Translations under genes and position numbers: made by a program
Assembly (NCBI GenBank): GCA_949130485.1
Contig: OX422184.1
Coordinates: 20,290,824 to 20,354,823, forward strand
DNA length: 64,000 bases
Direction of reading: 5' to 3'
From: Agelas oroides
Lineage: Eukaryota > Porifera > Demospongiae > Agelasida > Agelasidae
Shown here: positions 22,374 to 61,687 of the stretch, one piece after another
Numbering within the stretch: the first letter of the stretch is position 1
Layout of the letters: every line of letters begins with the position of its first letter
Notes under the pieces: generated by a model
Told to the model about the DNA's origin: nothing
Seen by the model: the letters and a program-made list of their open reading frames with translations, nothing else
Database searches by the model: none

Positions 22374-22748
22374 CATTTTACCGCCTAATTTTAGTATGCA
22401 AGTCGACACGCAGCCGTTCCCAATGTTTTGCTGAGTCAGAATTTTATAACCGGATAAGTTGACGTCGCTACGTGCCCACTTCCGGTGTATTAACCCTTTT
22501 AGCCCGACGCGCATGCGCAGAAATTGATCGCGTGGTTACGAGAGAAGCTAATAAAAAATGGCGATTTAGTGTAGTGTTGATTCATTGCGTTATATCTTTT
22601 AAAATAGCTGAGTTCAGGCAATGATAGTTAGGCTTAGCTTAGTTGAAAACAAACCTGCTTTACTCAGAATGTAGTCAGAAGACCTGCTAGTGAAGTCCGA
22701 AGAAGCTACAACGGTGGAAACGTAGGTACCCGCTGTGTACCTGAAAAT

Positions 22749-28275: not shown

Positions 28276-28564
28276 TTACTTAGCACGCTCCTCCACTCCC
28301 TCATTCTTCAGCACATATCCACCTTGGAAATGTGTCTCAACTGTCTGGCATCCCCCTTGTCTGGCTTCTTCATTACATTTTTCATTCTTCCCAACCTGAG
28401 ATTTCATGACATTTGTCTCTATCTCTTGCTGTTCAGTGACAAAGGTGCTCACATCAAGGTAGTCTGCCAGGGGATTCAGGACAGATGTGATAGTTGTCAC
28501 CAGCTGAGAAAAGGTTGGTCTCTGCTGTGGATCTGCATCCCAGCAGCTCCGCATTACCTCATAC
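28276..28564 (-). CDS. Receptor kinase exon: C-lobe end and tail
   Basis: The exon begins in phase 2 and completes a [19 protein letters not shown] segment, the conserved kinase C-lobe end with its R near RPTF. An acidic tail of about 75 residues follows, containing YLDVST and GGYVL tyrosines, then a TGA-type stop region at 28276. It is the last exon. Confidence 0.93.
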
Positions 28565-31500
28565 CTGCATTATGGGAGTATATACTAAGTTGCTACCACT
28601 TGCTGACTTACCAGTGCATCTGCTAAATTGTGATGTATAACATTCACTAATTAAGGCACTGAAATGGTATTTGCATAAACAACAGCCTATCGGCAGTCTG
28701 TTGTTATCTGCACTCCTCTCTGATAGCAATAGCATGCTGTAAAGAATACCAACAAGCACTCTAGCATTATACAAATAGACATGTTACCTCCTAAGCTAAG
28801 CAATATTTATTGTCTGGAGGTCATATGATGTGTATACTTAAGTCGGTACAATCAGCTCACATACATTGAATCACAGCAAGCAGCATTATTTGGCTTTGAG
28901 GGCCTCTCTCCATTCTCCAACTGAGCAATCAGGGTTGTTGGGTGGATGCCAGGGTAGGGTGTCTTGGCAGTACTGAAGATCTCCCAGCATGTCACTCCAA
29001 ATGACCACTGCACAAGAAAGTCAGTTGCAACTAACAGCAACTTGTGAGTGCATACAACTTCGAAAAGGTATGATTGTTGCAGTCTACAGACTGTATCACT
29101 CTAAATTATTATGTAATAAGTATATAATTGCTCTAAGGTTTATGGATTATGTACAACACATGGTCTGCAGTCCAAAGTAATTACAGCTACAAAACATAGA
29201 GCACAAACAAAAGTATTTCATGCACCTTCCCACTCAGGGAGAACAGATACCAGGGCCATAGAGAACTTTTAATCTGGGGAGGGCAAATTTATTAGCTGAA
29301 GAAGAGAACATGGCCGCCCTGCAGCCACCACCGTGGATCTAGGTATAGCTTGGTCCCAGAACCTTCAGTGAAAAAAGCAGAGTAAACACGAGCACTAGAA
29401 GGGTCTGGAAACCTAACTACACTCCAGGGGAGTCTGGGGGCCTGCTCCACCAGGAAATTTTGGTAATTTTAGGTGTTCTGAGGCACATTCTGAGCCATAC
29501 AGGGAAACACACTGGGCTTCTTGGGAAAAAGGTCATTGAGCGGCTCATCATAATCATCATCACTTGCTGAGCTAATGGAACTGGAAACCATCTCCATTGG
29601 CTCCATGTCCTCTAGTGAACATACCGAGCAAATGCACAATGCATGCACATGCAGGTGACTGATCATGTGACAGTGTGCATTATTAGGGATTTGAAAGCCA
29701 CTGCCTAGTCAGCAACGAACTGTAACAGAGCAGACCAGTGGTAAGTCAGCAAGGTAATGCAAATAAGTCAAGTCCTCTGGTGCCCCCCCCCCCCCCCCCC
29801 CCCCCGCCCCTGTATGCTAGATATGGCCTTGGATACATTCATTCATGCATGCACCTTTTGTCCACACAACCTAGATGGACAATACTTAACATAATTGGTA
29901 GTGATGGAGAATTTTTCTTCATGATTTGCTTGTCGAGAAACAACCATTGTCTAGTAAAATTCTTTGTTTACTAGTCCTTCTTCTCACTTGTAATCAAAGC
30001 ACAACAGGGAAACAAACTGTCGCTCCCAAGGTAATCAACTCCTCACCTCTATAAATGTGCAACAACTGAAGATATCTAATAAGCTCTTGTCGGTCTCTAT
30101 AATTTAAAACTGCCCATTTGACAGTTGCTTTACAGCTAAGCTTCATCTATAATCCATAGATTTTGAATGTTAATTTCAGTTACATACTCAACAGTATGAT
30201 TTATATCCTGATATGTGTTGCAGTGCAAGGCAAACACTCACCACATCAGTTTTCTCAGAGAATATTCCATCAGTCAGACTTTCGTAGGCCATCCACTTTA
30301 TAGGTAGCTTAGCACCAGCTGTCTGCTCCTGTCGAAAGTAGTCCTTTGCATATGTGTTCTCTGATAGCCCAAAATCAGCCACTTTGATGACACAATTCTG
30401 ATCCAGCCTATAATCATGGACAATTGTAGAAAAATAGAAAGAAAAACAAAAAAAAAAGAAACTGATACACCACACATAGCCTGCACTTAATACAAGGGGC
30501 AAGGGCAAGGAGAGTGAGTAACCTACATGCAGTTTCTGGCTGCAAGGTCTCTGTGCACCAAATGGTGTCCAGTGAGGTACTGCATCCCTTTGGCTATCTG
30601 AAGGCACATGTCAAGCATTCTCTTCTGTGTTTTACAAATCTGCACATATGTGGATAGCAGGAGTTCATGATCATGTGACAATTTGCATATTGGGAGAATA
30701 AAACAAGTGAATGCAATACTATCATTTTCCATCCACCAAATAAATTATGGAAAAAAAGTGATTCATCCCTTAACAGGGCCGTCTCAAGCTGTTTAGAAAT
30801 GGTGTGGCTATAGTGACGCACGTTTACATAAGCACATAGCACAAAGGGGGGTCTTGGGGCATGCAGTCCCAGGACAATGTTTTTAAAAGTGCATGCTCGG
30901 AGATTGTTTCTGAAGCCATTTTAGGGCCAAAATGTCATATCTTCTGTAATTCTTAGCAAGCAGGATTTCAGGAGTTGCTACATGTCCACAATGAAGTAGC
31001 TAGTGATTGCAGATCCCACGTAACTTAGTGCATGCAGCAGCGCATTAAGCTCAGGGTTCACGGTCATATAAAATGCAGTGGTCAAAACTGCTGTGGCCAC
31101 TATATGTGCTACAGCCCTGCTTACCTAATCATAAAATGCTGTAAGTAGCCAAGCTTTTATTTATATCATGGCCAGAAAACTAAGAATCTGGGATAGGGAT
31201 GCGTCTATTATTCTTTCTTCCTTACCCATTATGTTTTTCTCAAAATCTGTACCCATTATGCTCGAGAAAGCGTCTATTATGCTCACAACAAGCTAGATAC
31301 AGCAACAAGGTTACTGTTGGAGAATGTGTCACCTTGAGCAGTTTGTTCGGGTCTCTTGTGTGCTTCTCGAGTCTAATTGTCTTCACGTTGGTGTCAATGG
31401 TCCAATAGCTTCTATGCTTTCCACATGGGGGTTAACCGTGACATTGTATGGATCCTTTTGTTCACTCTCAGTGTTTGAAAATACTGCTGAGCCACTACGC

Positions 31501-34500
31501 CCACCACTATATCCACCACCGCTTCATGGTTCCCGCTGTACATATGTACACAACTACCAATCCTATATTCCTATAAAGTACGTGATTATTCCCAAATTAT
31601 GCTCTATGCTTTTTACAGACCAAATATTCCAGAAATTATGCTGGCATAATACACACATCCAAAACCTGGTATAAAGGCTGTAATAAAACAATGTCCTATT
31701 GTATAGTGCAGTGCAATAAACTATACCAGATCAGTGTCTTCATCATCAGACATCAGTAGTTCCATTCTGTGTTTCCTGAGGTATGTGTGGAGGCTGCCAT
31801 TGGCCATGAAAGGCATCACTACATAAGGAACCTGGCCAGAAAGGCAGATACCAAGGATACCCATCACATGGGGATGCACAAATGCATTCATTTTTAGGCA
31901 TTCTTTCAGAAAAGCTGCAATATCACTTGGATCAAGGAAACCTAAACACAGAAAAGAGGGGGACAAGTAACAAATGTCATAGCTAGCAATGTATACTGCT
32001 ATCATTATTCAAACAGAATTAACAAAACAAGCGTGGTAAGTCACTGGCAGAGAGAGACTGTTCAGTCCACTAGGAACATTTCTTATCAAAACAACACTTG
32101 TGCATGAGGTCACTGGATGAGGTGTTGTAATGCAGTTTATTATTGGAACATGTTCGGGCGAGGCCTAGCAGACCGACAGAGATGATTACACAACAGAGAT
32201 GATCACAGGTCAAAGTTCCCTGCACCTGCACACTTCCAGGAAAGCCTTAATACTGCAAGCAAGTTGAAGCAACAAACCTTGGGATGAGAGGCTTCCACAC
32301 ATAGCTAGTGCTTTTCTTGGAAAATGTACTTCCATTACAATTATGATCTATAATCAAGTGGAAGAAATTGTTGTCAACCAACCAATGTCATACACATTGC
32401 TTTCATGATAACTATTTGAATGTTTGCTGTTTTTGCTGCTGTAGGTGATGCAACTGTGCTTACTTTCATTATTCTAATAGAACAGTAGGAAATGAAATGA
32501 TTTCAAATCTGGCTTCTGCTAGATTGGATTCATGAAAAAGTTCAGGGGTTATGTGTGCATTGTGCAACAAATGTGATAGTGCTTTGACCGGAAACTGGTA
32601 TATGAAAAACTATAAAACCTTGTCATGAAATTAATGATGGCTTGGAGGGACACTGCCATTCAGTTGCAGTCATGTACATGGAAGCATGGCTTTTTGTATC
32701 CTTACACTTGATAGTTTTCACAGCCACAATTTCACATTCTGTCTTTCTTAGAGTAGGTCTGGATAGACGAGCTCTGTACACAATGCCAGACTCCCCTGCA
32801 ATAATAATAGTTAAATCTCAGTACATAAAGCTTAGCAAGAACTTGAGAACACTGCCAGTATGTGGAAACATGCGCACACATTTTTTTTACCTTGTCCAAT
32901 TATGTCAAGCAAATGAAGATTACTTGTGTGAAAAATCATTTCTCCTGGAAAGTCCTGTAGATATCTAGTAGCTTCTTCATTTAGCTTCACTTTGGCCCTT
33001 AAAATAACAAGAAATCAATTTAAAACTAAACATACAAACAAAATGGTCTATTTTCACCTGGTATTATTTTTAATCCTTTTGCACAAAGTATTAAACTTCA
33101 AATGAAAAACTGATGATTACATTACCATAAACTCCTGATTTACCCTCCCAGCTCTAACATAGATAATTTTCACCCGTAGTGAGCATCTTCTGGGTGTACA
33201 TTTAGTCAACAAGTATTTTAGTAAACATATTACGCTGGCCGAGAAGGGTCAGGCAGCAGCTGCCTGAGGCTGCATGTGGCCGCCCCTTGGCCACGTTGGG
33301 CCGCGTGTGACCGCATCTTGGCCGCGTGAGGCTGCGCTAGGCTACATCTTGGCTAAGGCGTGGCCTGACATGCCCTAACACGGCATTTTTATTTGCCTAG
33401 TTCTTATGCGCGTGCGCAGTATGTTATCAATGACATTGCACAGGTTTTGTTATGTAGTTATTCTTGATGTAGATTAGCAAATGAAGATGTTGAACGACAT
33501 TCATCTGTTTCGTACATAAAGATGTAATCATACCATAAAGAAATGTTGATTGAATGTAACTTTTAGCTAGAAGGCTAAAGCAAATTTGTGAGGTCAAAGC
33601 CATGTTCTACATGGCAGTAACTCTCCTTTGATACCATGCATATGAAATGGTGCTGATCAAAGTTTTATAGGCCTGTCATTATTAGAGTGAAGTTTGTTGC
33701 AAATCCCTATTGCTTAGGTATGGTGTAAAATTTAGTACCAGGATATCCAACTGTAGTCTTTCAAAATATTTGTAAAATCTAACTTTAGTACTGAGGGTTA
33801 GATGTACACCACAGCTGGTATGAATATATACTCTCACCAAATTCCGTACTGATCACTCAGCTCTACTGCATAAAAATTATCAGAAACATTGACTGGTTTT
33901 AAACAAACTATCATACGGCGGTCTGTTAGCACCAGACAGCTTGCAATATAGGTGTACACTGTAGGTTTCTACATTCTAGAGAGATTTTGACAGTTATACA
34001 TAAATTATGGTATAGTTAGTCATCAAAATGTGAGGCCAGAAGTTAAGCTGTCCCAGAGCATTAAGCAGTAGTTTTGGTAAAAATTTAAGCAACTTCAAGA
34101 CTCAGGGGCGGTAAAAATCTAATTTTCTATACAACCGTTTACATTTTACTCCTGTACTTAAAGGATTTGTAACCAACTTCACTCCAATAATGACAGGCCT
34201 AAAACCTCAATCAGTACCATTTCATATGGTAATGTTTGATAACACTGTGCAAAACAGACAGAATTCCTCCAACATCTTTATATGTGCTAATATCATGGTC
34301 AGATGTTTTATTTCAATATGCTGTATCTGCATCATGACTAACTACATACCAAAACCTGTGCAAAGTTCCACAAGGACAATACTGTGCATACGCATAAGAA
34401 CTGAGTAAAAAAAAAATGCTGTAGGGTCTTGGGCGCATGTGGCCGCGCTCTGGCCACGTGGAGTCACTCGTAGCCGCGCTTTGGCTGTGTGGGGCAGCGC

Positions 34501-37500: not shown

Positions 37501-38783
37501 AAATATTTCACGAAGACTGATCTCGTGCACGAAGCATGTTACGTGGGCTACTGCCCGAGTGCAGCATCGGAGACCCGGAGCGAAGACAACTGAAGTTAAA
37601 GCTTACTTCTGGTTTGTACTTCTTCCAACCATCAACAGCAGGCCACTCACAGGCGGTAGAAATATGGACAGTGGTTGAGGTCACTTCAGGTAAGAGCCAG
37701 TCATGCATGGCATGAACAGCACTCACAAACGCCAGAAATTAGTCCATGCATGTATAGCTACATTAGCTGCCCTGGCTGGAGAAATACTGGCATACGTGAT
37801 ACTAAGCTATCTCGGGTGAGGACTTAGCTACTTATGCGTTTTGAAATGTACCACGACAAATTAGTAAACCAGCAGTGTGCTGCTCGTTCAGGCTCGCCCC
37901 AAGATGATGAATCATCCCACTAGTAGAAACTGATATTAATTAAGCCAGAGTATAATTGAACTAAGTACCTCATAAGCAATGCTGAAGGCTTTCTTCTCTT
38001 TCTTCTCTTGTAATAAATGAGGCAGCCAAAGAGGAGAATAAGCAACACCATAACACCCACAATAGTTCCACCAATGACAGCTCCAGTGTTAGAAGTGGCT
38101 TCAGAAGGAGCTGTTTAATGATCAGAATGCTAAATATAGCACACAACCTTCCTTGAATTCATGTGATAACAAAATACCAGTTTTCCAAATTGCACCCAAA
38201 GATGCGAATTAAAGGATTTACTAAATATTACACCCCAAAACGCGAAATAAATGTTCATGCAATATATATTACACAAGTTAGCGTGTAATAACCGCGACAT
38301 ACATGCTAATGAGTGTGGTAACATATTTATTATCCACTACCATAAACTCGCCGTTTGAACGCATCAATTCTAAAGCACATCAATGTTGCTAGGATATCGC
38401 ATCGCCCCAGGGCCGGTGCAGTAACACCTGTGCAATCTCGTGTGGTATTGCTCGGCTTGGGAAATGGAAAATACTGTTGTAGAAGTATCTAAATTAAAAT
38501 AATATGAGAGTCAGTAGACTCTCTATGTAGTGATGGCGCGGACGTGCAATATATGCAATACTTAAGAAAAAGCTGCATAACACCACAAATATGCTAAAAG
38601 CTTATCAGTTGTACTCTAGTGTGAAAAAGAAATGGTATGCCTAGGGGTATAGTCGGTTCCATAAGGCTGAGCAATGGCTAGGGTGGGACTGGGGCAGTTT
38701 GGTGTTATCTGTGAGGCATACTCATATTAACATTACGAGTGTGAGGCTCTCTCACATTTGACTAACCACTGTGAGGCTCTCTC

Positions 38784-38844
<61 letters not shown>

Positions 38845-43231: not shown

Positions 43232-43268
<37 letters not shown>

Positions 43269-46200: not shown

Positions 46201-49200
46201 CAACAAATTTTGTGGGTTGAAGTCGGTAGCCGAGGACCAACTGTCTATTTTCATTTACATGCATGCATATGTGTTGCAAGTTACAAATGTACAGTCAGTT
46301 TTGGCTCACTGATACAGGTAGGTTCACTCCGTGACCACATTCCGTCAGCTTGACATGTACGAGTACTGTCTCCCACCAGGTTGTAGCCAGTATTACAACT
46401 GTAGGTTGCCATCTGTCTGAATGTTGTTCCATTGGGGTGACTAACTTGGCCATTCGTAGTGGTATTCAAAGCTCCACAGTCTACAACTGTTGAATGAAAG
46501 AAAGTATATATATATATAATCAGTTTAGTCATACGAAATTTGTGGGCTCAAGTTGGTAGCCAATGACCATCTGTCCATTTTCATTTATGTGCATCCATAT
46601 GTACACCTTTAAGTTGCAGGTTACATGTGTACAATCAGGTTTGGCTCACTGATACAGGTAGGTTCACTCCCTGACCAGATTCCATCAGCTTGACACATGT
46701 GGGTACTGTCTCCCACCAGGTTGTAGCCAGTATTACAACTGTAGGTTGCTGTCTGTCTGAATGTTGTTCCATCAGGATGACTAACTTGGCCATTGGTAGG
46801 GGTATTCAAAGTTCCACAGTCTACAACTGTTGAATGAAAGTAAGTATACATTACATATATGTTAAGTTCAACAAATTTTGTGGGTTGAAGTTGGTAGCCG
46901 AGGACCAACAGTCTATTTTCATTTACATGCATGCATATGTGATATAACTACATCTTTAAGTTGCAAGTTACATATGTACAGTCAGTTTTGGCTCACTGAT
47001 ACAGGTAGGTTCACTCCGTGACCACATTCCGTCAGCTTGACATGTACGAGTACTGTCTCCCACCAGGTTGTAGCCAGTATTACAACTGTAGGTTGCCATC
47101 TGTCTGAATGTTGTTCCATTGGGGTGACTAACTTGGCCATTCGTAGTGGTATTCAAAGCTCCACAGTCTACAACTGTTGAATGAAAGAAAGTATCAGAGA
47201 GTCGGTAGACTCTCTATGTAGGGATGGCGCCGACGCACAATATATGCAATACTTAAGCAAAAGCCGTATAACTTCACCACAAACACGCTAAAAGCTTATT
47301 TAAGCGCCCTGGCTTCCTCTTTGAGTGACTTTGTGATCAGCAAGACTCATATAAGTGGCCAAAAGCCACGAAGAAGACAGCTAAACGCAAGAGTGTGCGG
47401 TCATGAAAGTGCCATTTTTGTTATTCTTTCTTTCTTCGTTACGACTTTTGTTCAAACAACGATATCTCGCAAACGGCTCAAGTACTCACCTTGAATTTAG
47501 CACGAAACGGATGCTCATCACAGCGCGCAGCTTCCCAACCACTCAGCGTCTTCATAGCTTCAAATTCACCATGGTCAACAAAAGCCATTCACAACACTCT
47601 GAGGCTGCTGTCCGTTGCTTAGGACGCCATTTTATAATTTTGTACGCATGCGCACACGAAGTCTCGTTCCCAGACCAAAGACAACGGTCATTGGTCTGGA
47701 AGCAAGACTAGTGCACAGAAAAATGGACAACGGGCAGTACGCATGGTTGGCATGGTCTTCCCCCCCCCCCCCCCCCCCCCCCCCCGCGGCATTGGGCAAG
47801 GCTTATGAACACCACGTAGGTAAGGCGCTACCTACTTGTAGCAACACTAAAAATAGCCTACTCAGCTTTTGTGAACTGTAAAGCTAGGATGGTCAGTTGT
47901 CAGTATGATAGTTTTCTGTGCTGCAGCTGGTCAGTCGTCATGACAACTGAATCATGAAATTGGTTTCACAAAGTTTGGTAGGGAGAGTGGTTGGCCCTTC
48001 ATCAGGTTCTAGCTGGCTATATTACACATTATTATTACATGCCTGGAACTACTACTAAACTGTCAACACCATTTCAAGTTCTGGTGTTGTGATTACACTT
48101 GAAATAGGCTTAGGCCACTCCAAGTTGATTTGTTGTTTCCCATTACACTGGAAACTTGAGGACATGCGGGCGGGCGGTTCACTATTCATTATTCATTACC
48201 AGAGGCTCTGAGCAAAGAGGATGTAAAAAGTTCTGAAACATTGCTACATTGTATCACAACACTGTCAGTGCTATCACAACTGTCAGTCACAAATACAGAA
48301 TCAATAATAAATAAACGTATGCATAATGAACAAAATAATGCAGCTCATAAAATGGTGCGGGCGGGAAATGGGAAACAATGAATCAACTTGGAGTGGCCTT
48401 AGGTCTAACTGTAACTGAGATTAACATCAAAAAAGTACAGAAACAAGACTTTAAAAACATTAAAAATGTAAAACGATGTAGGGATGACATGCCAAAAAGT
48501 ATGCAAACAAGGTAGGGATAATGCATGAAAGCAAAGGTCAACATATTGGCAAAGCCCCATCCCTACATCTTTTTCACACTGCAGTTTGACAGCGTGCTTG
48601 AGAGCTGAATCTGTACCCATCCATGCAGTTAGCATGAGTACATGTGAGTACCTGAGTTTACACACTGATTACTATGACTAGTCTGCAGCCCACTCAAGCT
48701 CAGTGTCTAGGTTGTATCAGAAAGGGTGCCACTGTCACTACAAGTAGTATGATGGCAGTAAAGCTACATAGTAGCTATCTGATAGGTACCTACGATGTCT
48801 ACGACACGGATCATACTAGCCTCGTTCCCAGTCCATGTGGGAGGAGCTAGGAAGTGGTCTGAGAACGAGGAACTTGTAGCCTCGTTCCCAGTCCATGTGG
48901 GAGGAGCTAGGAAGTGGTCTGAGAACGAGGAACTTGTAGCCTCGTTCCCAGTCCATGTGGGAGGAGCTAGGAAGTGGTCTGAGAACGAGGAACTTGTAGC
49001 CTCGTTCCCAGTCCATGTGGGAGGAGCTAGGAAGTGGTCTGAGAACGAGGAACTTGTAGCCTCGTTCCCAGTCCATGTGGGAGGAGCTAGGAAGTGGTCT
49101 GAGAACGAGGAACTTGTAGCCTCGTTCCCAGGCCATGTGGGAGGAGCTAGGAAGTGGTCTGAGAACGAGGAACTTGTAGCCTCGTTCCCAGTCCATGTGG

Positions 49201-52200
49201 GAGGAGCTAGGAAGTGGTCTGAGAACGAGGAACTTGTAGCCTCGTTCCCAGGCCATGTGGGAGGAGCTAGGAAGTGGCCTGAGAACGAGGCTACAGCCAT
49301 AGGTCGGGGTGTTGCTTGTGGTACGTTTTAGGAAGACCCCATGCACTGTCTAACTGCAGTGTGAAAAAGATGTAGGGATGGGGCTTTGCCAATATGTTGA
49401 CCTTTGCTTTCATGCATTATCCCTACCTTGTTTGCATACTTTTTGGCATGTCATCCCTACATCTTTTTACATTTTTAATGTTTTTAAAGTCTTGTATATA
49501 TATATATCAGTTTAGTTATACGAAATTTGTGGGCTCAAGTCGGTAGCCAATGACCATCTGTCCATTTTCATTTATGTGCATGCATATGTACACCTTTAAG
49601 TTGCAGGTTACATGTGTACAATCAGGTTTGGCTCACTGATACAGGTAGGTTCACTCCCAGACCACATTCCATCAGCTTGACACATGTGGGTACTGTCTCC
49701 CACCAGGTTGTAGCCAGTATTACAACTGTAGGTTGCTGTCTGTCTGAATGTTGTTCCATCAGGATGACTAACTTGGCCATTGGTAGGGGTATTCAAAGTT
49801 CCACAGTCTACAACTGTTGAATGAAGGAAAGTATATATATATCAGTTTAGTTATACAAAATTTGTGGGCTCAAGTTGGTAGCCGATGACCATCTGTCCAT
49901 TTTCACTGCATCGTTGATGTTGAACACTTACACGTTCATGCAGACTCATGTTTGTTATTTAATTTGGTCATCATTGCCTCAGTTTTGGTTATTGTCTGAT
50001 TTTTCTTGAATGTTTATTTAGATCAATATACAAGTTTCAAAAATAGTGCATGCTTCTGATGTTTTAGTTGTAGTTTTAATCTAGCGCAATCAGAGAAAGG
50101 GCTGAAACATCTTTTGGTCCCTCAAGCCAGATTGGATGACTAGCAATGATCTTTCACTGGTTCTCTCTCGGAGAGCTCATTCTACCTGTGATGAATTGGT
50201 CATCAATCCACCTGTTCATGATCACCACTCCCCTCAAGTCGCCCGTTGACAGTGAGCAAATTGAATGGACATGTTTTCCCCAGCCTCAGAAAGAGGCAAG
50301 GCGTCATGTGTGCCTCCATTACTCACCTCGCTACTCACCTCAAGGATCTAGAAAGCAAGGTCAATCAACTAATCACTTTAACTTGCCCAATAAATGACAA
50401 AGAAACTGGAACCTCTTGATTAAGCATTTAAAACTCACCACTATGCTCATCTTGATGCCATTGATGATGAAGAGACCCTTCAGAAAGAACAAGATGCGCT
50501 CGATGAATGAACATGATGATCTCACTGCCCTTGCTGTACATATACAGCAACTGATCGCTAATTGCATCTCCTCCGACTCTAGTTCTTGTAAGAGTGCCTC
50601 TCGAAGACTTGCTAACCTGTAGAAGAATCTATCTTCTGTTAGCACAGCAACTGGCCCCTTGTCTGGAGAATCTGATGTCTGGCTTCTCTGCCAATATGTG
50701 GAACAGCTCAGTGACTTCAAGAAAGATATTTGTAATGGCCTTCTGTCTCTGGATTTGAAAGAATCTGATGAGTTTTGTACGTCACAAACCTAGAGAAAGG
50801 AATATTCGACTGCTCCCTTGAAATCATGAAATTGCTATGTGCATCAAGCCATCCCCCTGACCCCACTGCTACACTGCCAGACAGCATGGGAGTAAAGCTA
50901 CCTAAGCTGGATGTGTCAGCATTTGATGGGAATACCCTTAACTGGAGGTCCTTTTGGGAGTGGTTCTGTGTATCTGTGCACAGTCGTTCCAACCTCTCGG
51001 ACTCGGAGAAACTAGTGTACTTCCAACCTTCCTTGAAAGATGGATCCGTGAAGAATGTCATTGAGGGCCTGTCTCGCTTCGGTGTATACCGAAGCCATTG
51101 AGCATGTGCTCAAGCCTCGATCTGAGACATCTGTTTCTGATCACAGAAGATCGTCACAAAATGAAGCTCAGCCAGGTGAGGAAGAATCCTGCACTTAGCA
51201 AACCTGTGGCATCCTTCACTGCTATGGCGCCACTTATCTGAGTGCCAATTTTGTCCTCTTCAAAACGGACAAACATCCATTGTATGCCTGCACTTAGTTC
51301 AAGTCTCTACCACACGACAAGATGGTTTCTGTGTTCATAGCGAATGGTCTCTGCATGAATTGTTTGAGACCTGGTCATTTCATCAAGCAATGCAAATCTT
51401 TTAATCGTTGCAGGAAGTGTTGGACCCCCACCACACTTGGTTACATGCATGTGGAAACACAGGATGATTCTCCCACTACACCTCTCTTGTCCGAAGCCAA
51501 ACCCATCACATCCGAATTAGTTATGTCCGTCTATACGTGAAGCAACCTAGTGATACACTTTGGTTGAGTACATTACGAAGTTTATTTCCTCAAATAAGCG
51601 TAACGCTTGATGCTGTGCTCCTCCAACTCCACAAGTGCACTCTATTAATCACATGAAGCTCGCTCCTGGGTGGGGCACTCATTTGAATAAACTTTGAGCC
51701 ATAGAGGAAATTGGGCTAAAAAGTAGGGGGTGGGTGCTCTTTTGAGGGTGCGCGCTCTTTCGCAAGACTATACGGTAATTATACCTCTAAGTTAAGGTTA
51801 CATATGTACAGTCAGGTTTGGCTCACTGATGCAGGTAGGTTCACTTCCAGACCGCATTCCATCAGCTTGACACATGTGAGTACTGTCTCCCACCAGGTTG
51901 TAGCCAGTATTACAACTGTAGGTTGCTGTCTGTCTGAATGTTGTTCCATTGGGATGACTAACTTGGCCATTGGTAGTGGTATTCAAAGTTCCACAGCCTA
52001 CAACTGTTGAATGAAAGAAAGGATATATATAAGTTAAGTTTGTGGATTCAAGTTGGTAGCCAAGGACCACCTGTCCACTTTCATTTACATGCATACATAT
52101 GTGATATAATTAAGTTGCAGGTTACATATGTACAGTCAGGTTTGGCTCACTGATGCAGGTAGGTTCACTCCCAGACCACATTCCATCAGCTTGACACATG

Positions 52201-55200
52201 CGAGTATTGTCTCCCACCAGATTGTAGCCAATATTACAACTGTAGGTTGCTATCTGTCTGAATGTTGTTCCATTGGGATGACTAACTTGCCCATTGGTAG
52301 TGGTATTCAAAGTTCTACAGTCTACAACTGTTGAATGAAAGAAAGTATATACATATATATATATTTGGTAGTGGCTAGAGAGCCGGTGGTGGAAATTAAA
52401 TTCTAGGGTCAATAACTTCTGATAGCAAACTCCAATTTTAATGAAACTGGTATCAGTAGATAGAGCTTTAAAAGAGCTACAGGCGTTTGGCTGTGCTTTA
52501 TATTGTCATAAATACAAATACAAACGCTTAAAGTACCGGTACCAGTACTTTAAGATTATGCGAAGTGAATTTTACTAGGTACGGCGCCTGTACTAAACAG
52601 CTTGCTGGAATAAAGGATATCATTTTGTAGCTCTTTTAAAGCTCTATCTACTGATACTAGTTTCATTCAAATTGCAGTTTGCTATCAGCAGTTATCGACC
52701 CTAGAATTTAAATTCCACTACCGGCGGTCTAGCCATTGTGTATATATTTATTATCCAGTTGATATCATGGCCGTCGGAAGCGGGGCGGCTGGGGCGGCCT
52801 TGGCCGCGCCACTTTTTCCGTAAGCCTGAACCTTGAATAATTTCAACAGGGAATGGCTGATCGCAGACAACACCACAAACTGGTGAAAGTCCACACCAGC
52901 CTTCTTCTTTAAAACGAGAATTTGAAAATTCGATCAAGCGCTCGTTTCAGTGGAATTGGTTTGATAGATGGTCGGCGGGACCAAGACCTTTCGGTGTGTA
53001 GTTACTGGCTGCAGTCCGCTCGTTGCTTGGAGCAGACATTTGGAACAAACTGCTCGTGATGCCGGCTACCAATATCACGAGTGTGAGTTCGTTCAGTGCT
53101 GCCCAACATATCAAGACGCTCAACGATGTCTCGGCAGTGTCTGAACCATTTGATGCTCTTGCACCTCGATAAAGGCGCACCGACGGCCTCGATTAACATT
53201 GTAGATGTTGCCAACAATTTCATTGCTAGTAATAATCACATGAAGCATATGTTTGGCACCGAGTTCAAGCCATCTGATCAACTATGAGTTATTATGTACT
53301 AATATTGTATGGTTTCTGGAATAACACTACGCAGTTCATTTCCATGTTTGTTTTTTTTCCTATCACGCAATTGCAAATTCATGCTATCATTATAGTATAG
53401 ACAATTACTGAGCGAACTAGCTTTGTGTTCCATCTTGGTCTGAACCGAGTTAGAGATATTCCATGAATTTCAATTCACCGAGATGCTGTGAGAGCTTCTT
53501 GATAGCCAAAAAAAGGATAAATAAAATTGTGACAAACCACCCTGAAAAAGCCTCCGACGGCCCTGGATATTCTTACAACAGTATTTTCCTATTTCCGTGC
53601 CGTGCAATATCGGTGTTATTGCACGGGTGTTATTGCACAAGGGGTCTCATTACTTTCACGTCGTTTCATGTCCCCTGTCACATGACCCACGAGGGGGTGG
53701 GGTCAGGACACGAGCGCACTTGTGTCTACTGGGGGTATTAAAACCTGCCACGAAACAGAAATGAAGATGCAGCCAACGTGAAACTTTGCCTGCTAAAACC
53801 AGTAATGTCTAATTTCCGGCCACGGACAACCTACAGGACGGTGAAATTCATCTTTGCGCTGGAGGATTGAGGCACTGTGGGATCAGCACTGAACTAAAAT
53901 TTATGCAACAAAACCTGATGGAGCTGCCTTGATGCCAACCAGCTATGGCTGTGAAGATGATGAATGTGTAGATGGAAGCACAATAAGTCCTGCAACAGTA
54001 TATGTGCATGTTTTTAGGACTTAGAAAAATGGAACAATTGTATTTGAGGACGAACACTGGTTGGAACTTGCAGTAATATACATGTACAGTTACTTCAGAG
54101 TTCACTGCAGTATCATTGGTACACATGGAACCAGAGCGTCCTTAGCGTTATTCCCTGGCTCCTCTAGGCCCAGCTTTTGTCAGCTGAGTGCAGCCTTGGG
54201 AATGAGGCTATAAACAGATTATCACCTGTCAGTGTGCAGTCCAGAGATTACATATGAAACTCTGTGGTGTATAGCCTGCTAGAGGCTACCAGTGATTGCA
54301 ACAGTGAAAGTGCATGTTGATATATATTCATTATCAGAGACTGTACTGCACTGCATACTATAACAGAAGACATACAAAAAGATATAGAGGTTTCAACAAG
54401 TTTAATCAGTCAAAGGTCAAATAATCACATCTCCCCTCACTTAGATCAACACAGTCATTGTGGGATAGTCTCGTCCCCAGACCTTGAAAACCGGAAAGAG
54501 AGTCTGCTGTTCTGAGCAACATTTCTTGTCACATGGGGTGGGGTCTATGGCATAAAGAATGTCATAGGCCTAATGACATTTTACATCCGGGACTCCAGTT
54601 TTCTGACGACTTAGACTTCTGCATGATATGGTTTACTAAAGCTTGATAAGACCGCAATGTTTCTTGGGAAAAGCTGTGAGGTAAGTTTTTTCAGTTTGGT
54701 TCAAAATACGATCGCTAATGTCATGCACATATAATTGTGCATTCTAGAATCTGATTCAAGCTCTCAGATCGGGGAGCTACCCTGCCCCATGCGACAAGAA
54801 AAGTCATTCAGAACACTAGACCCTCGCATGTGCAAGAGGGTCTGGGCATGAGACTAATTCACGGGGTTGACTTGACTGACACTTGGTATAGGTTCACACT
54901 TGGCTTCCAGGTTTGCATCCAGGCTCGCCCACCACACACGGCTTCTTGCCAAGCTTTTCATCCTTGCAATGCCTTGGTGTACATATATCTCACACAGTTC
55001 CTGGATTATTCGCTCTCTTCCTGATGGTCGAACAACCACTTGTGCATTCCAAAGTACACAACCATCCAGCACACTCAACTCTTGCCTCCTCTAATTCTGC
55101 TACACTCCTCCCTTTGGCTCTTGAGAAGGCCAACCATAGACCACAAACCTTGGTCCAAGTCTTGATCTGCTTGGCTGTCTAAGGTGATACAGTGTCCAAA

Positions 55201-57110
55201 TTCTCTACAAGCAAGAGGACGTTACTAGGGATTGGATGGAATGACTGTAGGACTCTGAGGAAGTGGCAAACGGCATAGTCTTGGCAACAGGCTGGGTTGG
55301 AAGCAAACAAAATGCACAGCCTGGTTTCCAGGCCTTCTCCGGCTTGATCACTTGAGTGCACCAAATCCTGAGCTCTACTGACACTGCCACACTGTCACAG
55401 TCCACACAATTTTACAACAGTTATCATAACTGACTTATACCTCTAGACAGAGCTTCCATCTGCCTCCTTTGAACCATCAACAGACCAAGAGTGCGTGAAT
55501 AGACTCGAACTGCGTAGACTATAATTTACATGTCGAATAACCTACATATGCATGCTAGCTCCACCCACACATATCACGTGAGGGGGCATGCAACGACGTG
55601 AAAGTATTGAGACCCATTGCACAAGGGGTAGCTAGAAGGTATAAAACCTGGAATGGAACGGAACGGAACGCGCGATGGAAAATATGTCAGCTCATCAATG
55701 TACGGAGAGCTCATCTCGCGTCCTGTATATACCAGCCACGAAGACTGGACAAGCATACAGCAGACAGTATAGAGCCACACCAAGCGTATGAAACATTCTA
55801 GCCGTCTACCTGGTATCTTCGTCTGGCGTCGCCGACCCTTCGCTTGCAAGGGAGGGGTCGGCGATGTCACTACCGTCTCTGGGCTCAGCCGTGGGGAGTG
55901 GAGTTACCTGTGGCTCACCCTGGAACAGGAAGGGAATGGTATCGCGTTCTGTACTCTCCACAAATACGAAACAAGCATCACCAGAGAGCGTCCGCTGGCA
56001 CGTCAACATCCAGCGGGCTAGGACAGTTGTTGGCTCAGCCATGAGATGTATTACCAGTATATCTATAGCTCAGTTTACTACGATGTTTCATTAGCTTACT
56101 TAGCTTTGTGCTAGAGCTTGTTTCAATAGTACAGGCCCGTTTCCTGTTCCACTGAGCAACTCGTAAGCTAACATGACCTATTACTGAGCCCATAGCTGGC
56201 TGTATCCTATGTCCACGTCGTATTGTGCGTCAATTACTTCCGGTTCCGTTCCGTTCCGGGTCCCATGTAGAAGCGTTTGCGACCGGGATCAAAATTCAAT
56301 CAAGCGATCAAAGCCCTTTTGGGGGGCCGATCAAGGGATCAAGGTGGCCTCCGAACTAATCAACGGATCAAGAACGCGCGGCTATAACTTGACCTTTGAC
56401 CCTGAAAATCAAGCGATCAAGAGCTTCAGAAGGGAACGATCAAGCGATCAAGCACACTTTTTGCCGATCAAACATTTTGATCGCGGTCGCCAGCGCTTCA
56501 ACAGGCGACATATAAGTGACTACCCCTTGTTGGACGGACCACAGAGCTACGCGAAATCCTAGCAACCACGATAATATATGCGTTCTAACGGCGAGTTACT
56601 CGGTACTTTGTGTGAGAAGAGACACGACGCGACTGTGGTAATGGATAATAAACATTTTATTACACTCGTTAGCGTGCATATCACGATTATTGCACTCGTG
56701 GGCTGCATTTTCACTCGCCTTCGGATATCCGGCGCCAACTCATGCAATAACTCGCGATATTGCACGCTAACTCGTGTAATAAGTTATATATATCAGTTAA
56801 GTTCGACAAAATTTGTGGGTTCAAGTTGGTAGCCAAGGACCATCTGTCCATTTTCATTTTGACATGCATATGTGATATCATGAATTACACCTTTAAGTTA
56901 CAGGCTACATACATACAGTCAAGTTTGGCTCACTGATGCAGGTAGGTTCACTCCCAGACCACATTCCATCAGCTTGACACATGCGAGTACTATTTCCCAC
57001 CAGGTTATACTCTGTGTCACAACTGTAAGTGGCTGTCTGTCCAAATGTTGTTCCATTGGGATGACTAACTTGGCCGTTGGTGGCGGTATTCAAAGTTCCA
57101 CAGTCCACAA
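28276..57110 (-). CDS. CCP-repeat receptor tyrosine kinase (gene model)
   Basis: Proposed single-pass membrane receptor. In transcription order there are 15 CCP exons (R to D, 59 codons each), a transmembrane exon, two juxtamembrane exons and six exons completing a tyrosine kinase. CCP exons are phase 1-1. The last one ends phase 1, the transmembrane exon starts phase 1, and the nine exons from there sum to 1340 nt, giving with one base from exon D exactly 447 codons including the stop. Sushi modules usually bind proteins outside the cell and the kinase would phosphorylate tyrosines at the inner membrane face. The first exon and signal peptide were not found and should lie above 57110. The link across the 5.5-kb intron is inferred from phase, strand and order. 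Alternatively, some CCP exons belong to a separate transcript. Confidence 0.72.
28865..29007 (-). CDS. Receptor kinase exon: subdomain IX-X
   Basis: It starts in phase 0 with [12 protein letters not shown] and continues [11 protein letters not shown] and NGERPSKP, all standard in receptor tyrosine kinases. The donor is AT|GTATGT, phase 2. Confidence 0.93.
29469..29609 (-). CDS. Candidate alternative terminal exon
   Basis: This 47-codon frame follows a CACTAGAG acceptor in phase 0, the phase in which the upstream kinase exon (30242-30407) ends. It encodes [19 protein letters not shown] and then DEPLNDLF, and stops at 29469. Used instead of exon 28865-29007 it would end the protein after the SEKTDV segment with an acidic YDEP-bearing tail and no kinase C-lobe. 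It could also be a relic of a paralog's tail. Confidence 0.4.
   Translation of the reverse strand, partial: DMEPMEMVSSSISSASDDDYDEPLNDLFPKKPSVFPCMAQNVPQNT
29783..29805. repeat. Poly-C tract
   Basis: A 23-base C homopolymer lies in a receptor intron. Similar tracts occur at 21840 and 47761. Confidence 0.95.
30242..30407 (-). CDS. Receptor kinase exon: DFG and activation loop
   Basis: It encodes [20 protein letters not shown], the metal-binding DFG and an activation loop with two tyrosines. [20 protein letters not shown] follows. The usual A-P-E is A-Y-E here. It starts in phase 2 (after an ATAG acceptor) and ends in phase 0 before GTGAGT. Confidence 0.94.
30527..30639 (-). CDS. Receptor kinase exon: catalytic loop
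   Basis: It encodes [20 protein letters not shown], then [26 protein letters not shown] is the tyrosine-kinase catalytic loop with the base aspartate intact. It begins in phase 0 and ends in phase 2 at a GTAGGT donor. Confidence 0.94.
30775..31119. mobile_element. Possible hAT-like MITE in kinase intron
   Basis: The left end is CAGGGCCGTCTCAAGC and the right end is the loose inverse GCTACAGCCCTG. The arms agree only over about 8-10 bases and no clean target duplication is seen. Confidence 0.35.
31727..31941 (-). CDS. Receptor kinase exon: alpha-C to hinge
   Basis: It encodes [17 protein letters not shown], in which the glutamate should pair with the ATP-site lysine. [12 protein letters not shown], the hinge [17 protein letters not shown] and an acidic MSDDEDTD insert follow. 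It begins in phase 1 and ends in phase 0. Confidence 0.93.
32706..32795 (-). CDS. Receptor kinase exon: glycine loop and lysine
   Basis: Together with the preceding exon it makes [11 protein letters not shown], the ATP-binding loop. It continues to EIVAVKTIK with the catalytic lysine. It is exactly 90 bp, phase 1-1. Confidence 0.93.
32891..32997 (-). CDS. Receptor juxtamembrane exon 2
   Basis: It encodes [20 protein letters not shown], then [15 protein letters not shown] leading into the kinase. The acceptor is TTTTAAG, entering in phase 2, and the donor gives phase 1. Confidence 0.88.
33231..34559. mobile_element. Foldback element in receptor intron
   Basis: The ends are TACGCTGGCCGAGAA and the inverse TTCTCGGCCACCGTA, with ACATAT repeated directly on both sides (33225-33230 and 34560-34565). 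Inverted similarity extends deep inside: the stretch near 33633-33715, with ATATGAAATGGT and AGGCCTGTCATTATT, recurs inverted at 34145-34240. Subterminal zones are rich in TGGCCGCGT phrases. It contains no transposase. Confidence 0.82.
34991..35771. mobile_element. TIR element with AACCCTCGGCGC ends
   Basis: The left end reads TAACCCTCGGCGCGCATGC and the right end is the inverse of AAACCCTCGGCGCAGCAG. Near the left end there is a second inverted CCGAGGGTTA and a TGTGTGTC repeat. It lies in the intron between the two juxtamembrane exons. Confidence 0.7.
35938..36012 (-). CDS. Receptor juxtamembrane exon 1
   Basis: A 75-bp exon encoding [20 protein letters not shown] and FDKH. The tyrosine in THTYVED is a candidate docking site. 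It is bordered by ATGCAG and GTACTG, phases 2-2. Confidence 0.85.
36013..37371 (-). other. Receptor intron, no feature resolved
   Basis: No exon is seen. A TAGCCTCATACCCAGGCCA phrase at 36824 and a partial inverse at 36857 suggest a small copy of the CTCGTTCCCAGG-type MITE. Confidence 0.4.
37372..37902. mobile_element. TIR element with TTGGGGCGAGCCTGA ends
   Basis: The left end is TTGGGGCGAGCCTGAGCGAG and the right end the inverse (CTCGTTCAGGCTCGCCCCAA). A short ACGT run and a CTTG run occur near 37430-37465. It is a 531-bp non-autonomous element in the receptor intron. Confidence 0.82.
37969..38110 (-). CDS. Receptor transmembrane exon
   Basis: It encodes a short Ser/Thr-rich stem, then [20 protein letters not shown], then a CLIYY and a basic KRRKRRK stop-transfer stretch, the expected type I topology. 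The acceptor after TTAAACAG gives phase 1, matching the phase 1 end of CCP exon D. The donor AG|GTACTT gives phase 2. Confidence 0.9.
38507..38612. mobile_element. Repeat family X, head fragment
   Basis: The GAGAGTCAGTAGACTCTCT palindrome and following sequence match the starts of the copies at 2529 and 47195. The match fades after about 100 bases. Confidence 0.7.
38782..38846. repeat. (GA)n microsatellite, 5' flank of the LINE
   Basis: A GA tract of about 65 bp with two small interruptions lies immediately before the non-LTR element. Confidence 0.95.
40437..41110. mobile_element. 674-bp TIR element in the LINE
   Basis: It cuts the RT frame and is flanked by a 9-bp direct repeat AAGGCATTC (40428-40436 and 41111-41119). 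The ends are TAGCCTCGTTCACAGG and the inverse of TAGCCTCGTTCCCAGG. A longer inverted arm includes GTTCGAAAAATCGGAGAAAA and GGGCCTGGTATCC. A 9-bp duplication is typical of Mutator-like elements. No transposase is present. Confidence 0.88.
43071..43148 (+). repeat. 78-bp copy of LINE coding sequence
   Basis: These bases repeat 42724-42801 (the [10 protein letters not shown] coding stretch) within what should be the 3' untranslated region of the LINE. Confidence 0.9.
43231..43288. repeat. (GA)n microsatellite, 3' flank of the LINE
   Basis: A GA tract grading into GAGG repeats directly follows the non-LTR element. Confidence 0.93.
43612..43788 (-). CDS. CCP exon D (last, membrane-proximal)
   Basis: It has the same module and 177-bp length, but the usual GTGAGC donor is gone. 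The exon instead ends CAG G|GTGTGT, still phase 1, with TCQ in place of TCI. Joined to the transmembrane exon this reads TCQ-APSEATS. Confidence 0.85.
43969..44145 (-). CDS. CCP exon E
   Basis: Variant with [13 protein letters not shown] and NTSYNL. It shares these with exons H and J. Confidence 0.88.
44308..44484 (-). CDS. CCP exon F
   Basis: Variant with [12 protein letters not shown] and TRICQADG. Its closest sibling is exon K. Confidence 0.88.
44636..44812 (-). CDS. CCP exon G
   Basis: Variant with WSRSEPTC. It is paired with exon I 673 bp away; the intron carries the same ATTATATATATATCAG run. Confidence 0.88.
44976..45152 (-). CDS. CCP exon H
   Basis: Predicted protein is identical to that of exon J, and surrounding intron bases also match by eye. 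Confidence 0.88.
45309..45485 (-). CDS. CCP exon I
   Basis: Second copy of exon G, with one change seen (TYNCNTG for TYSCNTG). Confidence 0.88.
45649..45825 (-). CDS. CCP exon J
   Basis: Second copy of exon H in the 673-bp tandem duplication. Confidence 0.88.
45982..46158 (-). CDS. CCP exon K
   Basis: Like exon F but with WSRSEPTC. Confidence 0.88.
46310..46486 (-). CDS. CCP exon L
   Basis: Variant with DCGALNT and FRQMATYSC. Exon N, 687 bp upstream, encodes the same module. Confidence 0.88.
46650..46826 (-). CDS. CCP exon M
   Basis: Variant with SHPDGTTF and DGIWSG. Exon O is its duplicate. Confidence 0.88.
46997..47173 (-). CDS. CCP exon N
   Basis: Duplicate of exon L. Repeat family X is inserted 21 bases above its 5' (high-coordinate) end, in the intron. 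Confidence 0.88.
48113..48398. mobile_element. 286-bp PIF/Harbinger-like MITE
   Basis: The ends are GGCCACTCCAAGTTGATT and its perfect inverse, flanked by TTA on both sides. The matching place in family X copy 1 (about 3430-3440, AGGCTTAGGTCTAAC) has a single TTA and no insertion. A TTA duplication fits the PIF/Harbinger group. There is no transposase. Confidence 0.93.
48817..49293. repeat. 60-bp satellite, eight units
   Basis: Seven full 60-bp units and a final 57-bp unit begin TAGCCTCGTTCCCAGTCCAT and contain GTGGGAGGAGCTAGGAAGTG, then GTCTGAGAACGAGG. They differ at only a few sites (AGTCC or AGGCC). Each unit is itself a small inverted-end element. Period 60 keeps long open frames in several phases, which are not genes. 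Confidence 0.97.
49637..49813 (-). CDS. CCP exon O
   Basis: Duplicate of exon M (GMW rather than GIW), now 2.5 kb from exon N because of the family X insertion. Confidence 0.88.
49908..51775 (+). mobile_element. BEL/Pao relic, block 2
   Basis: It includes the same leader as 1-294, then gag-like sequence. [13 protein letters not shown] and NWRSFWEWF lie at 50900-50970. A knuckle [14 protein letters not shown] followed by CRKC lies at 51352-51420. Stops and frameshifts are frequent, and RT is missing. Its last 150 bases before the CCP intron look like a different short repeat (GGGTGGGTGCTCTTTTGAGG). Confidence 0.85.
51827..52003 (-). CDS. CCP exon P, lacking the conserved Trp
   Basis: All four cysteines are present but the motif reads DGMRSG, so the invariant Trp is Arg. 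It starts VGCG, not VDCG. It corresponds to exon A of block 1. Confidence 0.82.
52151..52327 (-). CDS. CCP exon Q
   Basis: Variant VDCRTLNT with SCNIGYNL. It corresponds to exon B of block 1. Confidence 0.85.
52368..52738. mobile_element. MITE with about 110-bp inverted arms
   Basis: The left arm (GGCTAGAGAGCCGGTGGTGG, then AATTCTAGGGTC, ATAGAGCTTTAAAAGAGCTAC) is repeated inverted at 52625-52738 with few changes. The non-repeated middle is only about 150 bp. Confidence 0.9.
52767..53564 (+). mobile_element. hAT element relic with dimerisation domain
   Basis: The ends are CATGGCCGTCGGAAGC and the inverse of CAGGGCCGTCGGAGGC. GATAT occurs on both outer sides. Plus-strand translation gives [20 protein letters not shown], then after a frameshift [19 protein letters not shown] and IVDVANNFI...MFGTEF, the hAT C-terminal pattern. 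The upstream transposase is mostly lost. Confidence 0.78.
53565..54467. other. Unassigned receptor intron sequence
   Basis: The phrase ATTGCACAAGGGGT with nearby TATTAAAACCTG (53630-53745) recurs at 55615-55650. Neighbouring CACGTCGTT-type sequence is inverted between the two sites. No gene is seen. Confidence 0.4.
54468..54857. mobile_element. MITE with TAGTCTCGTCCCCAGACC ends
   Basis: The left end TAGTCTCGTCCCCAGACC and a right end inverse to TTAGTCTCATGCCCAGACC bound about 390 bp without a coding frame. Confidence 0.7.
54858..55078 (-). mobile_element. Ty3/gypsy integrase zinc-domain scrap
   Basis: The minus frame shows [34 protein letters not shown] and DANLEAKCE. This is the integrase N-terminal zinc-binding region of gypsy elements. 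The second half of the pattern and the catalytic core are absent. Confidence 0.8.
55079..56272. other. Unassigned sequence, possible inverted pair
   Basis: GGAACGGAACGGAACG at 55660 and CGTTCCGTTCC-type sequence at 56245 are inverted. A minus-strand open frame (56042-55806, acidic, 78 codons) lies between them. I do not recognise it. Confidence 0.35.
56273..56496. mobile_element. GATCAAG-rich inverted element
   Basis: The ends read GCGTTTGCGACCGGGATCAA and the inverse of GCGCTGGCGACCGCGATC. In about 220 bp the motif GATCAA occurs about 12 times, often as TCAAGCGATCAAG. Confidence 0.8.
56655..56785. repeat. Short foldback sequence
   Basis: The arm ATTACACTCGTTAGCGTGCA with ATTGCACTCGTG is repeated inverted in the second half around a GGATATCCGGCGCC centre. 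Confidence 0.8.
56934..57110 (-). CDS. CCP exon R (first recognised CCP)
   Basis: It reads [11 protein letters not shown] with [10 protein letters not shown] and resembles block 1 exon C. It would be the N-terminal CCP of the receptor unless further exons lie between here and the fibrinogen exon at 61 kb. Confidence 0.83.
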
Positions 57111-61046: not shown

Positions 61047-61687
61047 TTATCTCTTACTTCGTCTCAGTTTCATCTCAGAGAATTTGAGAGAGTAGTTGAA
61101 TCCTCTCCATGTCCTCCAGTTCACACCATCAGCATAAGATGAGTGTGGTCCACCATGGTAGAGACCATTGAGGTTTGAGGTGTGGCAATTCCTATACCAC
61201 CAGGCACCTTTGAACCGCTGTGCACAATTGTAACTTGATGTATCATTGTCTTGATCTCTTGTAGTAAAGCGCTGTCCATTATGGACTCCAAGTGAGTCCC
61301 CTGCAGTTCCATTGTATCCTGATACTGATAGAATGTACTTGGATGATGAATCACCTACACTGAAACTTGTGTACTGAGCATACGCTGAGTTTCCTTCAAA
61401 ATCTCGCATATCAACTCGTAGCTCAGTAGCACTGGATGTCAGATGATGTATCTTGTCCAGCCCTAGCCAGAATTCTCCACTTAGATTTCCAAAACCTTGC
61501 TGATAGTCAGTCCAGTTGAGATAGAAGTTAACAGATCCATCCATTCTGCGCTGGAATACTGTCCATCCACCACCATCTGTCTCCATGTCACAGTATGCTC
61601 GGAATGCTGGCTGATCATCTGGTTGGATGGTGTAGACTTCACTGGTGGTTTGACCATGAATCAAGACATCCTTGCAGTCTCTATAAA
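61047..61687 (-). CDS. Fibrinogen C-terminal domain exon 2 (terminal exon)
   Basis: Complete fibrinogen-related domain of about 213 aa: YRDCKDVLIHG, CDMETDGGGWTVFQRRMDGS, GEFWLGLDKIHHL, a calcium-site-like DQDNDTSSYNC and FKGAWWYRNCHTSNLNGLYH. It ends KLRRSKR and a stop. The acceptor GGAAG|TTTATAG gives phase 1, compatible with a preceding CCP or Ig exon. The broken CCP copy lies 650 bp upstream. The start exon and signal peptide are not in view. Confidence 0.92.

Follow-up and report, generated by a model that had tools for sequence, protein, structure and literature searches.

A demosponge gene that joins fifteen near-identical sushi modules to a tyrosine kinase, with a probable fibrinogen-related head

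In a stretch of 64,000 nucleotides of the Agelas oroides genome (hereafter the window; C2:20290824-20354823 in an assembly of 259 Mb and 141 contigs), an array of 15 sushi (CCP) exons is followed on the minus strand by a transmembrane (TM) exon and a complete tyrosine kinase, and the observation of this array together with the kinase was confirmed as real. From exon order, splice phases and comparison with a neighbouring paralogue, we consider it quite likely that this gene, referred to as gene A, belongs to a small tandem family of demosponge receptor tyrosine kinases (RTKs) composed of a signal peptide, one or two fibrinogen-related domains (FReDs), a run of CCP modules (15 in gene A), a TM exon and seven juxtamembrane, kinase and tail exons. 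Across the copies, the likely architecture is signal peptide, one or two FReDs, 8 to 15 CCPs, TM segment and tyrosine kinase. The new features are an array of such length and near-identity and, if it is included in the receptor, the FReD.

Gene A consists of 15 CCP exons, the TM exon and seven kinase exons with GT-AG borders, all on the minus strand and forming a single frame of 1306 aa between 57110, where CCP exon 1 begins, and a TAA stop that ends at 28276. CCP exons 1 to 4 are located at 56934..57110 (177 nt, phase 1-1), 52151..52327, 51827..52003 and 49637..49813, exons 5 to 9 at 46997..47173, 46650..46826, 46310..46486, 45982..46158 and 45649..45825, exons 10 to 14 at 45309..45485, 44976..45152, 44636..44812, 44308..44484 and 43969..44145, and the last, exon 15, at 43612..43788. 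The TM exon (37969..38110, phase 1-2) has a homologous exon in the paralogue and holds the one TM segment between ectodomain and kinase, which was assigned by eye and fits the phase on both sides; the TM_ErbB1 profile scored 0.0034 on this region, short of its cut-off. Downstream are juxtamembrane/kinase exon 1 (32891..32997, to GQG), exon 2 (32706..32795, ESGIVY and VAVK), exon 3 (31727..31941, alpha-C and hinge), exon 4 (30527..30639, HRDLAARN), exon 5 (30242..30407, DFG and the activation loop YAKDY), exon 6 (28865..29007, WSFG) and exon 7 (28276..28564, C-tail and stop), with an AATAAA at 28088. An ORF at 29472-29615 was rejected as an additional exon, since the 240 proteins compared gave it no more than one match, a weak one (E 1.2). 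Phases agree over the 23 exons from CCP exon 1 to the stop, being 1-1 for the CCPs and 1-2 for the TM exon, then 2-1, 1-1, 1-0, 0-2, 2-0, 0-2 and 2-stop. When the joined 1306 aa were scanned with Pfam, Sushi (PF00084) was found in 15 stretches (2e-172) and PK_Tyr_Ser-Thr (PF07714) over profile positions 2-257 of 258 (4.3e-83), and catalytic motifs including HRDLAARN, DFG and WSFG could be read, which together make a complete tyrosine-kinase domain. The preliminary description of this locus had placed CCP exons, a TM exon and a full kinase in order on one strand, with consistent phases from the last CCP to the stop, and both statements were borne out by the GT-AG exons and the phase count. It had also put nine exons with all catalytic motifs in one open frame after the last CCP; the frame held, but there are eight exons and APE is replaced by AYE. 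The limits that it gave, 28276 and 57110, coincide with those of the frame described above. Its reading of the locus as one RTK gene with a 15-module sushi ectodomain agrees with the Pfam result and with the paralogue, which repeats the plan.

The 5' half of this paralogue, B, is inside the window, and five of its CCPs, its TM exon and its seven kinase exons lie to the left of it. B has 8 CCPs of 177 nt, a TM exon and 7 kinase exons ordered as in A; the three CCP exons within the window are at 10595..10771, 10268..10444 and 9930..10106 on the minus strand. Protein identity to A is 79-94% for the kinase pieces and 73% for the TM piece. From the TM exon to the last exon, AG acceptors are present in 8/8 and GT donors in 7/7 cases, and six of the eight exons have the same length as in A, the other two differing by multiples of three (TM exon +3 nt, last exon -6 nt). 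The donor of the last CCP in B (TGTCAGG/gtgtgt, slash at the exon border) is of the same odd kind as that of CCP15 in A (TGCCAGG/gtgtgt), and dN/dS between the two kinases is 0.42. Against the intactness of B, one CCP is without its fourth Cys and the tail stops earlier. Two further units on the same contig are less complete. Unit C (20.19-20.21 Mb) has FReD and CCP exons, and the 44 kb below it gave no match to a TM or kinase exon. For unit D (19.97-19.99 Mb), the stretch searched below it, which ends at 19930824, matched four of the eight TM-kinase pieces, including one that is short and not in sequence with the others.

The domain-architecture search proposed earlier, for CCP repeats with a TM segment and a tyrosine kinase, did yield such receptors: sushi and tyrosine kinase occur together in 8 proteins among the best 120 of 2995 kinase relatives, all from Halichondria or Dysidea. 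Like gene A, the Halichondria panicea (P0009, P0012, P0018, P0025, P0029, P0040) and Dysidea avara (P0088, P0110) proteins contain sushi modules together with a TM-like segment and a related kinase, in the order sushi, short linker, TM, kinase in P0009, P0012 and P0018. They differ in having 1-4 Sushi stretches (E<=1e-5; six sushi were counted by eye in P0088) instead of 15 near-identical ones, and in being without a FReD. The Dysidea proteins and P0012 show Sushi and kinase only in Pfam, whereas IgGFc-binding, SRCR, TIG or fn3 domains are added in the other Halichondria proteins. Kinase identity to the five Halichondria sushi RTKs listed is 48-51%. The nearest kinase relatives are SRCR RTKs of Amphimedon, Geodia and a metagenome (best kinase-domain identity 53%, metagenome protein P0004), in which precomputed Pfam annotation shows SRCR modules as the ectodomain and, in some of them, a Frizzled-type domain as well. 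In a quick tree of 51 rows made without bootstrap, the gene A kinase falls within a set of 31 rows, either demosponge or unnamed metagenome (SH-aLRT 100), close to the SRCR RTKs though at no settled position among them, and apart from the Met, Mer and JAK/Shark rows; sushi RTKs appear at several places in the tree, those of Dysidea outside the 31-row set. Among solved structures, the Met/HGF receptor family gave the best single-stretch kinase matches, and by summed score a chain that contains two EGFR kinases comes first. The Pfam scan of the joined 1306 aa contained no Sema, PSI or TIG domain, so the Sema-PSI-IPT ectodomain of the Met/RON family was not found, and an ordinary Met receptor was rejected because the kinase lies outside the Met group in the tree.

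The preliminary description had further suggested that the architecture could be new, which was not sustained. Sushi RTKs of demosponges are already deposited, and the excerpted text of a study of H. panicea mentions LPS-regulated kinase-activity genes with 'sushi, DEATH or LRR domains' (PMC8242945), therefore gene A is not a new kind of receptor. Other excerpted sources describe sushi and EGF-like motifs within the cysteine-rich region of Eph receptors (PMC6485061) and ectodomain shuffling in holozoan tyrosine kinases (PMC8662651, in the excerpt of which the word 'sushi' is absent), and the excerpt of PMC6374515 has plexins and Met as its subject. A literature search on the FReD-sushi RTK architecture and its domains found no paper on such a receptor within the collection searched. 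Proteins with FReD, Sushi and tyrosine kinase together numbered none among the best 120 of 797 and none among the best 120 of 1319 database matches. A nematode model with a kinase followed by FReDs (P0267) was set aside, as its order is different and it may be a fused gene model. Sushi and FReD do share one protein, as here, in Amphimedon P0284, Mercenaria P0149 and Oculina P0285, but in these the FReD comes last and no kinase was found, whereas the FReD exon of gene A is located 5' of the sushi exons.

Upstream of CCP1, both A and B carry a Fibrinogen_C exon. In gene A it spans 61058..61687 on the minus strand (630 nt; phase 1-1, or terminal, reading SKR-stop; PF00147, 6.2e-83) between an acceptor GAAG/TT and a donor A/GTAAGA, and a second FReD is found just beyond the window at C2:20356042-20355401; in B it spans 12717..13346, also on the minus strand (Pfam 8.2e-71). 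Still further upstream, each of the units A, B, C and D has a first exon, MAKLF...LLRRSSE, whose core is hydrophobic. It was found by a hydrophobicity scan, and its designation as a signal peptide rests on hydrophobicity. This exon is outside the window in A (C2:20370673-20370811, 139 nt) and at 22244..22376 on the minus strand in B, where an in-frame 6-nt deletion shortens it to 133 nt; it ends in a phase-1 donor, GAAG/GTAAT, and a TATAAA precedes its ATG by 63-74 nt in 4/4 units. At least 15 genome matches to its DNA were found, and all of them are on contig C2: one per unit A-D, a group of three at 23.99-24.04 Mb and, in a sushi-rich region at 24.59-24.90 Mb, a group of eight. These and the other genome-wide match counts are lower bounds because only the best candidates were scored. 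The phases of signal exon (1), FReD (1-1) and CCP (1-1) read through, and by arithmetic on exon lengths the product with one FReD would have 1562 aa. With a FReD and a first exon upstream, the gene probably does not start at CCP1 and its ectodomain is probably not composed of sushi modules only; of the ectodomain as originally described, the 15 modules stand and the restriction to sushi does not. Other conserved stretches were tried as coding exons and rejected. In a segment common to the region upstream of CCP1-type exons the frames break between three copies; two short shared blocks, and a block that lies between the first exon and the FReD and is 88% alike in A and B, were rejected likewise. 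A truncated and frameshifted CCP copy at 62334-62470 (-), just upstream of the FReD, is not a real exon.

The best solved relatives of the gene A FReD are FIBCD1 (4m7f, 278 bits) and ficolin-1. Ficolins are secreted proteins. FIBCD1, a type II membrane protein according to partial source text, is without a kinase, unlike gene A. The excerpt of PMC3908420 places Tyr405, His415, Tyr431 and Trp443 in the acetyl pocket, with Ala432 at its base and main-chain contributions of Cys414/His415. Mapping of these positions by eye gave F, H, Y and F at 405, 415, 431 and 443 for the in-window FReD of gene A, in which C414, H415, Y431 and A432 of the domain shared with FIBCD1 and the ficolins are kept. The outer FReD of gene A has S at 405. 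In B the four residues are F, N, S and F, so that two pocket positions are changed (N for His415, S for Tyr431). Between the FReDs of A and B, dN and dS are 0.28 and 0.23 over codons 141-200 and 0.06 and 0.14 over codons 1-140; the two parts, at a cut chosen after seeing the alignment, differ in non-synonymous counts (Fisher, 2e-7) and not in synonymous ones (0.40). The faster change in codons 141-200 suggests that the ligand-binding end diverged more than the scaffold, and the pocket residues kept in gene A make acetylated glycans, microbial or host, the best guess for its ligand.

On this arrangement, the FReD head and the sushi stalk would bind the ligand; clustering of receptors would then allow the kinases to phosphorylate tyrosines of the activation loop (YAKDY) and of the tail (DYLDV, GYVLK), and the phosphorylated tail could recruit SH2 proteins. 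With a sugar-sensing FReD as a probable part of the gene, the product of gene A may act as an immune sensor coupled directly to a kinase. We tentatively propose, as a possibility that we would not yet favour as a whole, a pattern-recognition RTK with one or more ficolin-like FReD heads, a recombining sushi stalk and a kinase, in which the FReD would have two fates from the same promoter (receptor when A/GTAAGA is spliced, secreted lectin when SKR-stop is read) and a portable TM-kinase cassette would receive exchanged phase-1 ectodomain exons. RTKs are mostly known as receptors of growth and development, and, if true, a lectin-like head and a long, recombining sushi array on a kinase would illustrate how recognition may be coupled to phosphotyrosine signalling in an early-branching animal; the probable head, if included, adds interest beyond a sushi-only receptor. 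Whether repertoires for recognition evolve in sponges through the shuffling of phase-1 modules onto a single kinase cassette becomes a testable question, for which two tandem paralogues of different module number (15 and 8), together with cassette copies below other ectodomain exons, constitute a natural experiment.

Gene A could alternatively encode an adhesion or self-recognition receptor of development, the long sushi stalk serving cell-cell contact, and we regard this as a serious possibility, though short of an even chance. Sushi arrays occur in adhesion and complement proteins alike, a point in its favour. The H. panicea data cut both ways, as sushi-domain kinase genes were regulated after LPS, against an adhesion role, while no pattern-recognition receptor was differentially expressed, in its favour (both from the excerpted part of PMC8242945). 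The ficolin/FIBCD1-like pocket residues and the fast-changing codons 141-200, as in recognition genes, also speak against adhesion, both counting only if the FReD is part of the receptor. All of these arguments against adhesion are indirect.

Inclusion of the FReD in the receptor is probable, not proven, as judged from its splice signals and position. Its donor A/GTAAGA is found at the same place in 8/8 copies of the RTK cluster. The same bases also read SKR-stop, three codons past the domain, and an ATTAAA or AATAAA lies within ~110 nt of the FReD end in 7/7 copies examined. Hence the FReD could instead be the 3'-terminal exon of a secreted lectin (signal peptide and FReD, or signal peptide, CCP and FReD, ending at SKR-stop), located beside a sushi-only RTK or sharing its first exon, a reading that we find rather unlikely. 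The stop and the poly(A)-like hexamers are what such a lectin would show, and in other animals the FReD follows the sushi modules in 6/6 sushi and FReD proteins scanned, as a single C-terminal domain in five. Moreover, of 16 distant FReD copies (15 on C2 clusters and 1 on C6, our choice from 80 FReD matches), 13 stop there and have no donor at that position, leaving the donor in 3/16; the contrast with 8/8 in the RTK cluster, against the lectin, has a hypergeometric value of 2.2e-4, which is not a fair probability because the copies are related. In units C and D a CCP is present ~0.55 kb upstream of a FReD, as a signal-CCP-FReD lectin would require, and a signal-like ORF (MFHTL...) occurs ~0.3 kb upstream of that CCP in three near-identical copies. 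This ORF was rejected as an alternative first exon; with at least 23 matches on 9 contigs and both strands (for example C2:20207907, 20202950 and 19982701), it is probably a dispersed repeat, which removes it as support for the lectin, and the sequence is also seen in the window at 55704-55796 (-). Each unit has a single first exon, located 5' of the FReD, no common signal-like exon was found between FReD and CCP1 in A and B, and the phases suit the order signal peptide-FReD-CCP, all of which favour splicing of the FReD into the receptor. Conservation past the FReD was uninformative in deciding between donor and stop, since AGTAAGAGATAA is found in 8/8 cluster copies. Receptor and secreted lectin may possibly both come from one gene. 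Large clusters of FReD exons are present at C2:22.33-22.61 Mb and 20.61-20.63 Mb, and no kinase near the cluster at 22.3-22.6 Mb was among the matches listed.

The 15 CCP exons are strikingly uniform: all are 177 nt long, of phase 1-1, stop-free and bordered by an AG acceptor and a GT donor (gtgagc in 14/15; gtgtgt, likewise phase 1, in CCP15 only). Four Cys are present in 15/15 modules and the Trp in 14/15, the Trp of GMWSG being Arg in CCP3. Protein identity among the modules is 81-100% (mean 88%), 13 are distinct, and 34 of 58 columns are invariant. The intervening 14 introns measure anything between 147 and 4606 nt, which suggests that exon length is held while introns drift, and the intron between CCP4 and CCP5 contains a 60-bp tandem repeat (48817-49290; 7.9 copies, 99% matches). 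Mean dN/dS over 105 CCP pairs is 0.31, a rough figure in view of the non-independent pairs and the presence of identical units, exon plus intron of CCP11 being 100% identical to unit 9. Tandem Repeats Finder reported a 340-bp unit in 9.7 copies. In the identity matrix of units 5-14, values of 98.8-100% link unit 5 to 7, 8 to 13, and 9 to both 11 and 14, a pattern that shows multi-unit duplication. Since FReD and CCP exons are of phase 1-1, module number could change by unequal crossing-over or exon skipping with the frame intact, and the 15 and 8 modules of A and B fit such gain or loss. Human complement receptor 1 likewise has near-identical tandem CCP blocks from unequal crossing-over, without a kinase. 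Other tandem arrays of closely related sushi exons are seen at C2:5.540-5.555 Mb, C4:9.995-10.000 Mb and C12:6.53 Mb.

Near-identity of this degree also raises the question of a pseudogene or an assembly artefact, the array being a decayed or mis-assembled repeat. Units that reach 100% identity, the CCP3 module without Trp, the truncated CCP copy and the incomplete kinase below unit D would all agree with it, but we consider it very improbable: length, splice sites and four Cys are kept in every one of the 15 exons despite the variable introns, dN/dS is below 1 both for the CCPs and for the kinases of A and B, and the paralogue has its own spacing. The exact CCP copy number in the assembly could nevertheless be off.

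The intron between CCP15 and the TM exon contains a degenerate reverse-transcriptase element at 38937..43011 on the plus strand, which is not part of the gene product (RVT_1, 1e-9, on 41471-41875); of five ORFs scanned in it, the four others matched no family. In the part of this gap between 43615 and 43000, 3' of CCP15, the gene strand contains no AATAAA or ATTAAA. The strongest evidence that the CCP array and the kinase form one gene comes from paralogue B, because it keeps the order, phases, splice sites and last-CCP donor. That there are instead two genes, the array ending at the in-frame stop 5 codons past CCP15 and the kinase having its own 5' end in the 5.5-kb gap, where the retroelement and signal-like ORFs (2 with the usual donor, 6 by a looser rule) are found, is hardly credible, given the same order, last-CCP donor and phase-1 TM exon in B, the sushi-TM-kinase proteins already deposited, and the stops that other CCP exons also soon reach when read into their introns. 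As a 5' exon of the kinase, these signal-like ORFs were rejected, none being found common to A and B.

Parts of the TM-kinase cassette recur elsewhere in the genome. For the third kinase exon, counting those of A and B themselves, at least 16 matches reach 69% identity or higher; they lie on C2, C5, C9 and C13, and the TM exon family recurs as well. Upstream of a TM-exon copy at C5:4.83 Mb, we found two SRCR halves (2e-16, 6e-14) and a Calx-beta domain (2e-7), and upstream of another at C2 ~20.67 Mb (20.665) an IgGFc-binding domain (3e-56) and one Sushi (2e-9), the Sushi 3.2 kb from the TM exon; among the ORFs scanned upstream of these two copies, 3/8 had no family. The kinase cassette thus appears to occur with different ectodomain exons, their joins into single transcripts being putative, which would make the sushi array one of several ectodomains. 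Clusters of more distant kinase matches (~36-45% identical) are located at C15:1.23-1.49, C8:4.86-5.94 and C10:7.50-7.55 Mb and are apparently intronless, because many are single open frames of several hundred aa. In addition, the window contains an ORF for a hAT transposase dimerisation domain at 23772-24047 (-; 2e-8) and a tRNA-Ala gene with anticodon ggc at 63434-63507 (-).
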